From Saccharicrinis carchari (GTDB lineage Bacteria > Bacteroidota > Bacteroidia > Bacteroidales > Marinilabiliaceae): a stretch of DNA of 64,000 nucleotides. Positions 42,634 to 52,596 of the stretch are shown here, piece by piece. The position numbers and the translations under genes are program-made. Within the stretch, counting starts at the first letter, position 1; each line of letters starts with the position of its first letter. The notes beneath the pieces are model-generated. The model had not been told where the DNA came from. It saw only the letters and a program-made list of their open reading frames with translations, and searched no databases. The stretch is from contig NZ_FXTB01000010.1 of the NCBI RefSeq assembly GCF_900182605.1, positions 62,001 to 126,000 on the forward strand, written 5' to 3'.

Positions 42634-42666
42634 TTTTAACATTGTTTTAACATTGTTTTAACATTG
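42634..42666 (+). promoter_or_regulatory. Pho-box-like triple direct repeat
   Basis: Three perfect copies of the 11-base unit TTTTAACATTG in a row, so TTAACA recurs at exactly one helical turn. Known PhoP/PhoB boxes have TT(A/C/T)ACA-like or CTGTCAT-like hexamers at an 11-base period, upstream of phosphate genes. The element ends 18 bases before a -7-like box and 57 bases before the ATG of a phosphate transporter. Confidence 0.65.
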
Positions 42667-51375: not shown

Positions 51376-51409
51376 AAAAAAAACCGACTGAATACGCTTC
51401 AATCGGTTT
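51376..51409 (-). terminator. Terminator of the tRNA cluster
   Basis: On the minus strand ACCGATTGAA pairs with TTCAGTCGGT (one mismatch) around GCGTA and is followed by a run of eight T. It lies just past the 3' end of tRNA-Gly. Confidence 0.85.
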
Positions 51410-51412
51410 GCA

Positions 51413-51488
51413 TGGAGCGAAAGACGGGGATCAAACCCGCGACCCTTAGCTTGGAAGGCTAATGCTCTATCAGCTGAGCTACTTTCGC
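51413..51488 (-). tRNA. tRNA-Gly (anticodon TCC)
   Basis: 76 bases including an encoded CCA. Full cloverleaf: acceptor GCGAAAG/CTTTCGC, D arm GCTC/GAGC with GCTGATA, anticodon stem TTAGC/GCTAA enclosing CTTCCAA, and T loop TTTGATC. It is the last gene of the minus-strand cluster. Confidence 0.95.
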
Positions 51489-51501
51489 ATTAAATATATG
51501 A

Positions 51502-51577
51502 ACCAATAGAGGGACTCGAACCCACGACTTTCCCGTGTTACACAACGGGATGCTCGAGGCAGGGAATCTATATCGGC
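51502..51577 (-). pseudogene. tRNA-Thr-like unit 1 (altered D and anticodon arms)
   Basis: The last unit in reading direction, 13 bases before tRNA-Gly. The acceptor is GCCGATA with TATTGGT, so the outermost pair is G-T. The D arm is non-canonical and the anticodon arm is the 20-base form shared by all units. Its downstream spacer is cut short where it meets tRNA-Gly. Confidence 0.7.
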
Positions 51578-51618
51578 AATACTTTGATTCAGTTTCCTAT
51601 ATTTCGGAAACATAATGA

Positions 51619-51694
51619 GCCAATAGAGGGACTCGAACCCACGACCTTCCCGTGTTACACAACGGGATGCTCTAGGCAGGGAATCTATATCGGC
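51619..51694 (-). pseudogene. tRNA-Thr-like unit 2
   Basis: Acceptor GCCGATA/TATTGGC (one G-T pair), T arm identical to the real tRNA-Thr, altered D arm, 20-base anticodon arm. The spacer hairpin has a T-to-G pair change that keeps pairing. Confidence 0.7.
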
Positions 51695-51735
51695 AATACT
51701 TTGATTCAGTTCCCTACGTTTCGGAAACATAATGA

Positions 51736-51811
51736 GCCAATAGAGGGACTCGAACCCACGACCTTCCCGTGTTACACAACGGGATGCTCTAGGCAGGGAA
51801 TCTATATTGGC
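51736..51811 (-). pseudogene. tRNA-Thr-like unit 3
   Basis: Acceptor GCCAATA/TATTGGC, fully paired as in the real tRNA-Thr. The rest is as in unit 2. Confidence 0.7.
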
Positions 51812-51852
51812 AATATTTTGATTCAGTTTCCTACATTTCGGAAACATAATGA

Positions 51853-51928
51853 GCCAATAGAGGGACTCGAACCCACGACCTTCCCGTGTTACACAACGGG
51901 ATGCTCGAGGCAGGGAATCTATATTGGC
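51853..51928 (-). pseudogene. tRNA-Thr-like unit 4
   Basis: Acceptor GCCAATA/TATTGGC, fully paired. It differs from unit 3 by one base in the D region (CTCGAGC in place of CTAGAGC). Confidence 0.7.
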
Positions 51929-51969
51929 AATATTTTGATTCAGTTTCCTACATTTCGGAAACATAATGA

Positions 51970-52045
51970 GCCAATAGAGCGACTCGAACCCACGACTTTC
52001 CCGTGTTACACAACGGGATGCTCGAGGCAGGGAATCTATATCGGC
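51970..52045 (-). pseudogene. tRNA-Thr-like unit 5
   Basis: Acceptor GCCGATA/TATTGGC. One change in the T stem (CCC to CGC) breaks a pair; otherwise as the other units. It follows the first normal tRNA-Thr by the 41-base spacer. Confidence 0.7.
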
Positions 52046-52085
52046 AATACTTTGATTCAGTTTCCTACATTTCGGAAACATAATG

Positions 52086-52159
52086 AGCCAATAGAGGGAC
52101 TCGAACCCACGACCTGCTGATTACAAATCAGCTGCTCTAGCCAACTGAGCTATATTGGC
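52086..52159 (-). tRNA. tRNA-Thr (anticodon TGT), copy a
   Basis: 74 bases with discriminator T; CCA is not fully encoded. Acceptor GCCAATA/TATTGGC, D arm GCTC/GAGC with AGTTGGCTA, anticodon stem GCTGA/TCAGC enclosing TTTGTAA, T arm GTGGG/CCCTC with one T-T mismatch and loop TTCGAGT. Identical to copy b. Confidence 0.93.
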
Positions 52160-52166
52160 ACTATTG

Positions 52167-52249
52167 TGGGGAGAGCAGGATTCGAACCTACGAAGTCGTA
52201 AGACAGCAGAGTTACAGTCTGCCCCAGTTGGCCGCTTTGGTATCTCCCC
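52167..52249 (-). tRNA. tRNA-Tyr (anticodon GTA)
   Basis: 83 bases with discriminator A. Acceptor GGGGAGA, anticodon stem GCAGA/TCTGC enclosing CTGTAAC, a long type II variable arm, T loop TTCGAAT. The order Thr-Tyr-(Thr)-Gly resembles the common thr-tyr-gly-thr tRNA operon. Confidence 0.95.
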
Positions 52250-52266
52250 AATAAATATTTTTTAAA

Positions 52267-52291
52267 AAGCTTTCAACGTTTTTGAAAACTT
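52267..52291 (-). terminator. Hairpin between unit 6 and tRNA-Tyr
   Basis: Ten-pair stem AAGTTTTCAA/TTGAAAGCTT (one G-T) on a five-base loop, followed on the minus strand by TTTAAAAAAT. It could act as a terminator or attenuator, or as a processing signal inside the tRNA transcript. Confidence 0.5.
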
Positions 52292-52295
52292 ATGA

Positions 52296-52371
52296 GCCAA
52301 TAGAGGGACTCGAACCCACGACCTTCCCGTGTTACACAACGGGATGCTCTAGGCAGGGAATCTATATCGGC
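52296..52371 (-). pseudogene. tRNA-Thr-like unit 6
   Basis: Same structure as units 1-5 and again separated from a normal tRNA-Thr (copy b) by the 41-base spacer at the 117-base period. It shows that the pair 'tRNA-Thr plus altered unit' exists twice, on both sides of tRNA-Tyr. Confidence 0.7.
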
Positions 52372-52411
52372 AATACTTTGATTCAGTTTCCTACGTTTTG
52401 GAAACATAATG

Positions 52412-52485
52412 AGCCAATAGAGGGACTCGAACCCACGACCTGCTGATTACAAATCAGCTGCTCTAGCCAACTGAGCTATATTGGC
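52412..52485 (-). tRNA. tRNA-Thr (anticodon TGT), copy b
   Basis: Identical in sequence to copy a. It is the first tRNA of the cluster, directly after the SRP RNA gene. Confidence 0.93.
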
Positions 52486-52488
52486 GGG

Positions 52489-52596
52489 TGGGTAAGCTAC
52501 CTGCATCGCACCGCTCAACCATCTACCCTTGCTGCCGTCAGGCCCTGGGGGAATTCAACAGGAGCTGGTCGTACAGGACTTACCCGTGCGTTAGCG
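52489..52596 (-). ncRNA. ffs: Signal recognition particle RNA (small bacterial type)
   Basis: The conserved Ffh-binding hairpin is visible on the minus strand as CAGGGCCTGACGGCAGCAAGG. The outer stem is formed by GGGTAAG near the 5' end and CTTACCC near the 3' end. It guides ribosomes making membrane proteins to the translocon with Ffh. Ends are estimated from the promoter and the outer stem. It lies four bases upstream of tRNA-Thr copy b, so the RNAs may be one transcript. Confidence 0.88.

Follow-up and report, generated by a model that had tools for sequence, protein, structure and literature searches.

A tRNA operon of Saccharicrinis carchari contains six copies of an altered tRNA-Thr-like unit beside two intact tRNA-Thr genes, which raises the question of what these units are and why they carry a different hairpin where the anticodon arm should be. 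The operon lies on the minus strand of the window, meaning here the whole stretch of 64,000 nucleotides that was analysed. In the order of the minus strand, the locus comprises the following features.

52486..52592, minus strand: small SRP RNA (ffs), Rfam RF04183 at 106.6 bits; it shares the strand of the unit-bearing tRNA genes and is the first gene upstream of them
52411..52485, minus strand: intact tRNA-Thr(TGT), copy 1 (ARAGORN; Rfam 71.2 bits); abuts the SRP RNA
52292..52408, minus strand: altered unit A, 117 bp, laid out as a 37-nt spacer, a 78-nt tRNA-like part (52294-52371) and 2 nt; hairpin arm 52325-52344; tRNA model 34.0 bits
52166..52249, minus strand: tRNA-Tyr(GTA) (ARAGORN)
52085..52159, minus strand: intact tRNA-Thr(TGT), copy 2 (ARAGORN)
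51966..52082, minus strand: altered unit B; hairpin arm 51999-52018
51849..51965, minus strand: altered unit C; hairpin arm 51882-51901
51732..51848, minus strand: altered unit D; hairpin arm 51765-51784; tRNA model 35.9 bits
51615..51731, minus strand: altered unit E; hairpin arm 51648-51667; tRNA model 34.0 bits
51498..51614, minus strand: altered unit F, the most downstream; hairpin arm 51531-51550; acceptor end GGTTC, not GGCTC
51413..51488, minus strand: tRNA-Gly(TCC), the last gene (ARAGORN)
51381..51409, minus strand: terminator-like hairpin of 12 pairs with a T tail after tRNA-Gly (consensus match only)

A preliminary description of this DNA had reported one six-unit tandem array with a period of 117. 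The period and the six units are correct, but they do not form one array: five units follow the second tRNA-Thr gene, and the remaining one is flanked by the first tRNA-Thr and by tRNA-Tyr. Tandem Repeats Finder gave a period of 117, 5.3 copies and 96% matches over 51498-52115, and a search of the S. carchari genome returned the six units on the minus strand at 95-100% identity to the query unit. The array is located at 113.5 kb on a 157-kb contig, away from the contig ends. The SRP RNA match and tRNA-Thr meet at 52485/52486 with a gap of zero, so that 5' processing of the tRNA would create the 3' end of the SRP RNA. A motif resembling TAnnTTTG, the Bacteroidetes -7 element, stands immediately before the SRP RNA. 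The spacers of the units (51498-52082 and 52292-52408) contain a small hairpin, GTTTCC-N8-GGAAAC, in which the six copies differ by loop changes or by a pair that has become G-T. Elsewhere in the window, at 42634-42666, an 11-bp repeat, TTTTAACATTG, occurs in three perfect copies.

In each unit, a 37-nt spacer is joined to a part resembling tRNA-Thr, which matches the real gene in its acceptor, T arm and 3' end. In place of the anticodon arm of the real tRNA-Thr, GCTGATTTGTAATCAGC, the units carry TCCCGTTGTGTAACACGGGA; the lengthening from 17 to 20 nt described earlier was confirmed and corresponds to a 6-bp stem with an 8-nt loop. The loss of the D stem and of the D-loop GG was also borne out, the D region of the unit, GATTCCCTGCC, having neither. 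A 7-nt anticodon loop on a 5-bp stem was not found in the 20-nt arm, and ARAGORN called none of the six units a tRNA. Covariance-model scoring, suggested earlier as a check, gave a divided answer: no unit was listed as tRNA in the Rfam scan with default filters, whereas with permissive filters three of the six scored 34-36 bits with the Rfam tRNA model, above the cut-off of 29, against 71 for the real Thr genes. The predicted fold of the units is a rod, not a cloverleaf; fold z values were -2.1 for unit A (with a span short by a few bases), -2.8 for a whole 117-nt unit and -2.1 for the real gene, and two other unit spans in this test were cut in the acceptor. It is unlikely that the window units act as decoding tRNAs. 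A decoding tRNA of the frameshift-suppressor type with an 8-nt loop was considered and rejected, because the D arm and GG are lost and the loops of related units are mostly 2-5 nt. The preliminary description had also pointed to the invariance of the arm among the copies. The observation is true (10 of the 117 columns vary, none of them in the 20-nt arm) but not significant (P = 0.14); since such invariance arises by chance in 14% of cases, it is not the evidence that matters, and it was rejected as proof of selection.

The same swap recurs in the S. carchari genome. A genome-wide search for the hairpin in its setting found 12 places, namely the six Thr units, five Asn units and one Val-like unit, and its reversed-pattern control found none. 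The Asn units lie beside tRNA-Asn on contig C18 (L040) and the Val-like unit at C10:264. Nine more units were present at a Met locus, seven with the 5' half upstream and two with the 3' half downstream of tRNA-Met(CAT), each of the latter preceded by a GIY-YIG open reading frame (ORF). At L083 (G000 contig C2, reverse strand), the Met 5'-half units are 84 bp long, with seven exact copies and one imperfect copy, and one downstream 3'-half unit carries a second palindrome at the T loop. The suspicion raised earlier that this is not ordinary random decay was thus upheld, since the arm swap recurs in unrelated tRNA families both in this genome and across the phylum. The alternative offered earlier, that one defective gene was quickly amplified, would explain why the copies are in tandem but leaves the same hairpin in Asn, Met, Val and other units unexplained.

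A search of related genomes, proposed earlier, yielded both outcomes: the unit was present in G002, another species of the genus, and absent from four same-genus genomes. G002 carries one unit after each tRNA-Thr gene, and both contain the identical 23-mer GCATCCCGTTGTGTAACACGGGA with a hairpin identical to that of the window. The better-aligned of the two is 89% identical over 112 bases; the one that follows the first Thr gene no longer has the 5' half of its acceptor. The Thr-Tyr-Thr-Gly operon lies on one contig in the four genomes without the unit (L042, L045, L046 and L049), where the gaps are too short for any unit, and is split across contigs in two further same-genus genomes. At another G002 locus (L072, G002:C16), tRNA-Lys genes and units alternate, and ARAGORN reports these units as tRNAs whose anticodon has four bases (AGCG).

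The swap was then defined by the pattern AGAGCR-TCCCG-N6..20-CGGGA-RGGT, in which the hairpin takes tRNA positions 27-43. It was found in 42 of 295 genomes of the order, representing 38 of 184 genera, with four of these genomes matching only with 7-nt spacing as read by eye; one genome with this spacing, G060, has an array beside an intact tRNA-Ala. In the phylum, 34 of 296 genomes matched, at least two of which (G684 and G616) contain ordinary tRNAs. None of 299 Pseudomonadota genomes matched, and reversed-pattern controls gave no match in the order, phylum or Pseudomonadota scans. The matches in the G684/G616 pair, L304 (Ala) and L317 (Cys), were rejected as swap units, being ordinary tRNAs with a TCCCG stem, and a few further matches with a 7-nt loop may be ordinary tRNAs as well. 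Because the pattern presupposes TCCCG, two TCCCG-free patterns were also run. One, requiring an intact D arm, was applied to 198 genomes of the class and returned eight arms judged abnormal by eye, all of them TCCCG...CGGGA; its remaining rows look like ordinary tRNAs. The other, anchored at the 3' side and applied to the 295 genomes of the order, gave 54 rows, which by eye comprised 16 ordinary tRNAs, 4 unclear cases and 34 abnormal arms. Among the 34, 22 were exact TCCCG...CGGGA (13 genomes), two were near variants and ten were other hairpins from four genomes, one with a compensating change (TTCCG...CGGAA). A hairpin is therefore the rule, and TCCCG its usual, not its sole, sequence. One such hairpin, GTCTyG...CGAGAC, occupies the place of the anticodon arm at G290:C23:34556-35854 (six copies in G290) and at G271:C12:48479, and G013, of the same family as S. 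carchari, has an AT-rich hairpin at that place.

Wider scans were also carried out. A loose-pattern scan of genome contigs returned at least 120 stretches; among the matches listed, six had tRNA context, of which two had a 7-nt loop (probably ordinary tRNAs). Of the remaining four, three were in Bacteroidota and one, L207, in a metagenome-assembled genome labelled Deltaproteobacteria. A phage origin was considered and rejected: of the 38 stretches that matched in viral contigs, 23 have a 7-nt loop and, judged by eye, mostly resemble ordinary tRNAs of phages in which the TCCCG stem is natural. One entry of the viral collection, L344 (IMGVR_UViG_3300031707_006572), has three real-looking hairpin units around tRNA-Pro and may be host DNA. 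At L264 (G145:C119), tRNA-Ile and tRNA-Ala are followed by three hairpin units, which precede an apparent 23S rRNA start and are thus probably inside the spacer of an rRNA operon.

The units could be traced to parent genes. An intact tRNA on the same strand of the same locus matched 129 of 189 hairpin sites in the fetched loci at 0.7 or more on at least one side, a number that includes a few ordinary tRNAs with a TCCCG stem. The parents were Ala, Arg, Asn, Lys, Met, Pro, Thr and Val genes, that is, eight amino-acid identities and 15 anticodon species. The arm is replaced precisely (27-43), and positions 26 and 44 are parent-like in most rows, with the search pattern itself demanding about five parent bases on each side of the hairpin. 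Most of the extra copies are partial, and two kinds predominate. A 5'-type unit consists of leader, acceptor, D arm and hairpin, followed mostly by 8-11 nt of match to the 3' half; a 3'-type unit commonly has 8-13 nt of D arm, the hairpin, the T arm and the 3' acceptor. Their order was examined with 142 units from the 189 sites. Sites were left out when the locus had no tRNA on the same strand, when the parent arm itself was of the TCCCG kind, or when they lay at the edge of a locus; another 37, classed among the 142 as 'full' or 'other', did not enter the comparison. The 5'-type units stood upstream of the intact parent in 50 of 54 cases and the 3'-type units downstream in 49 of 51. The exceptions were two Thr units with a Thr gene on either side, L071 and L303, similarly flanked by Val genes, and two units in L299 in which a second hairpin in the T loop lowers the 3' match. 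Any tandem partial duplication would give the same order, so the order shows duplication and not its cause; a full nested-insertion model is supported only in part, since few loci combine units of both types (L083, L218, L224, L240, L243 and L295). T-loop palindromes were seen in 3'-type units of L083, L214, L215, L254 and L299, as if hairpin tips were a general target.

Many of these loci encode a small GIY-YIG nuclease. A GIY-YIG ORF was located within 1 kb in 42 of the 102 fetched hairpin clusters, and 58 of 58 such ORFs near units were on the strand of the unit. The other 60 clusters, some cut by contig ends, had no GIY-YIG ORF within 1 kb, and the inclusion of sites without tRNA context among the 102 lowers the nuclease share. 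In fetched tRNA loci without the hairpin, a GIY-YIG ORF was found in 1 of 40, the single positive locus (L089) having itself been fetched by a GIY-YIG search, as were L083, L085 and L088. The preliminary description had not seen this nuclease link, which lies outside the window: no GIY-YIG ORF was detected in or beside the Thr array of the window, the Asn array of the same genome or the Thr units of G002, and one was present at both the Met and the Val locus of S. carchari. In many cases it is tRNA sequence that determines where the ORF ends. The distance from the stop codon to the hairpin is 7 nt in 10 of 58 ORFs (where the stop is the TAG of TAGAGC) and 21 nt in 9 of 58; in L221, L230, L254, L258 and L260 the frame, read by eye, enters the hairpin and stops in its loop. 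Pfam PF01541 was confirmed in all three ORFs tested, and the nearest solved relatives by sequence are UPF0213 proteins.

The nuclease lineage follows the linked tRNA at these related loci. A tree was built from 23 of the 88 GIY-YIG ORFs, namely those that are closely followed by a hairpin, reach a parent match of 0.8 or more and are not identical to another ORF; its inner support is weak. Ten Val-linked ORFs from eight genomes required two label changes on this tree, compared with a mean of 7.7 after shuffling (as low in 0 of 500). One Arg-linked ORF fell inside the Val clade, and Met and Ala labels were scattered. The Met-linked ORF of S. carchari was nearest to a Met-linked ORF from another family (62% identity), and its Val-linked ORF was nearest to other Val-linked ORFs. 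The link between nuclease lineage and tRNA holds for Val and is weaker for Met and Ala, and it concerns the related loci, not the array of the window.

We propose that the units are non-coding remains of Bacteroidota-wide, tRNA-targeting GIY-YIG elements of the homing type that amplify segments in tandem, an account whose chances of being right or wrong we consider evenly balanced. Each such endonuclease, small, free-standing and of the GIY-YIG type, would be specific to a single tRNA gene and would break it around the anticodon arm. Recombinational repair would leave partial extra copies beside the intact gene, with 5' halves upstream and 3' halves downstream; in the 3' halves the D arm would often be fused to the nuclease ORF. 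Further recombination would then make the tandem repeats grow and shrink. The arm (27-43) of these extra copies would be swapped for the hairpin TCCCG-N-CGGGA, which may render the copy resistant to the nuclease or serve as a binding or recombination site; the anticodon arm would in that case lie within the nuclease target. What the loci themselves show is their architecture, their recurrence and spread in the phylum, the nuclease linkage and the tie of nuclease lineage to tRNA isotype, whereas we infer cleavage, mobility and this direction of events. The Thr array of the window may be an ORF-less derivative that passed from one unit per Thr gene, as in G002, to one plus five; with no nuclease gene left, it may since have changed by ordinary unequal recombination. 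A pair of empty and occupied sites with the nuclease was not observed in the loci compared, and the nuclease model does not explain the sparing of the intact gene or the prevalence of TCCCG...CGGGA. A more specific reading is that of a distinct phylum-wide class of mobile units that swap the tRNA anticodon arm for a stock hairpin, which is tenable and on balance doubtful. An isotype-specific GIY-YIG nuclease would here cut across the anticodon arm, and the element would restore the intact gene and mark both broken halves with a cleavage-proof hairpin. Repeated invasion of one gene would then produce nested arrays of the form [5' half-hairpin]n - intact tRNA - [nuclease-hairpin-3' half]m, and the window array would be an example of their ORF-less satellites.

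Alternatively, plain tandem slippage at tRNA genes may have been combined with a mobile or mutational palindrome settling in dispensable copies. A dispersed Bacteroidota palindrome would replace hairpin tips, only broken copies would tolerate it, and the GIY-YIG gene would be a passenger. Palindromes of the TCCCG...CGGGA type occur at 95 places in the S. carchari genome versus 37 for the reversed control (about 2.6-fold); 21 of the 95 are tRNA units and most lie outside such units. In addition, 5 of the 62 units inspected, and two more in L299, have another palindrome beginning at the T loop, and other hairpins take the same place as the swapped arm in four genomes. The excess of palindromes elsewhere and their presence at the T loop make palindrome spreading independent of the nuclease a serious rival, which we nevertheless judge rather unlikely: the anticodon arm is the usual place, positions 27-43 are replaced precisely with 26 and 44 mostly parental, the nuclease ORFs are one-stranded (58/58) with lineages that follow the tRNA, and chance palindromes would not give 0/299 in Pseudomonadota.

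A distinctly smaller probability attaches to the units being functional tRNA-like RNAs (toxin decoys, regulators or processing signals) transcribed with the operon and selected for their hairpin. The position of the units between same-strand tRNA genes, the retained acceptor and T-arm sequence, the three window units that reach the tRNA cut-off and the hairpin identical in two species are all consistent with such a role. The inner stem of 78 distinct hairpins extends by 2.41 pairs on average, compared with 0.65 in shuffles (0 of 2000 as high), but such pairing is also expected of a palindrome copied as DNA; it shows that the hairpins are palindromes, either selected as RNA or copied as DNA. 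A general tRNA-like function is further opposed by the prevalence of 5' or 3' halves among related units, loops of mostly 2-5 nt that preclude decoding, an invariance within the array that chance can supply, and four same-genus genomes that have the operon without units. Finally, a one-off amplification of a defective tRNA-Thr in the S. carchari lineage, with convergent units elsewhere, would fit the tandem period, the high identity of the copies and the lack of the array in other genomes of the genus. It is scarcely credible given that the hairpin stem recurs in the Asn, Met and Val units of S. carchari as well as in 42/295 genomes of the order, and that G002 has the unit too.

Hairpin-swapped tRNA copies, or a GIY-YIG link to them, in Bacteroidota were not described in the open-licence full-text literature searched, where the closest matches were the SegB precedent and reviews only. 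Like ordinary tRNA pseudogenes, the units are broken copies beside a parent gene, but random decay gives no single hairpin in many tRNA families. The rtT RNA of the E. coli tyrT operon consists of tandem repeats with a tRNA piece inside a tRNA operon, as do the window units; it involves one tRNA family and is not known to involve a hairpin swap or a nuclease, and rtT had no match in Rfam scans of the window with default or permissive filters. REP/BIME sequences and other dispersed bacterial palindromes, including the Rickettsia palindromic elements (PMC3733652), likewise are short palindromes with many copies per genome, also outside tRNA genes. The GTAG/CGTC tags of REP families given there are not part of the conserved TCCCG...CGGGA core. 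No such tag was present beside the unit hairpins, whose flanks AGAGCR and RGGTC are parent tRNA sequence, and here, unlike in REP/BIME, the palindrome stands in for a single defined arm of the copied tRNAs.

The closest precedent is SegB, a free-standing GIY-YIG homing endonuclease that breaks tRNA-bearing DNA and, in the account of phage T6 consulted (PMC13096335), drives tandem amplification of tRNA-Tyr together with segB. The T6 repeats arise there by recombination between the tRNA 5' region and the segB 3' region, and the segB 3' end, which is lost, shares microhomology with the tRNA 5' end (PMC13096335). SegB and other free-standing GIY-YIG homing endonucleases of T-even phages (PMC13096335, PMC2988022) and the Bacteroidota loci share a small GIY-YIG ORF beside a tRNA and tandem repeats of tRNA plus nuclease, and the 3' ends of the Bacteroidota ORFs run into the D arm much as the segB 3' end meets the tRNA. 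They differ in that SegB acts in a phage, whose amplified tRNA is intact and useful to it, whereas the present loci are on bacterial chromosomes; the Bacteroidota ORFs, known here from sequence alone, resemble UPF0213-type proteins. If the proposed explanation is true, tRNA genes, one of the most constrained gene classes, host a selfish system that is common in Bacteroidota and has been overlooked; it would target the anticodon arm and be the bacterial equivalent of the phage SegB tRNA amplification. It would also explain the small GIY-YIG ORFs beside tRNA genes, some with stop codons in tRNA sequence, as well as contig breaks at arrays and odd annotation calls ('tRNA-Lys', four-base anticodons); if the units are instead RNAs with a job, they would constitute a new tRNA-derived RNA family. 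By this comparison, the Bacteroidota loci look like a chromosomal counterpart of SegB amplification. What is new relative to SegB, for which the parts of PMC13096335 and PMC2988022 consulted describe no hairpin swap of the anticodon arm, is that the extra copies lack the normal anticodon arm and carry a stock hairpin instead.
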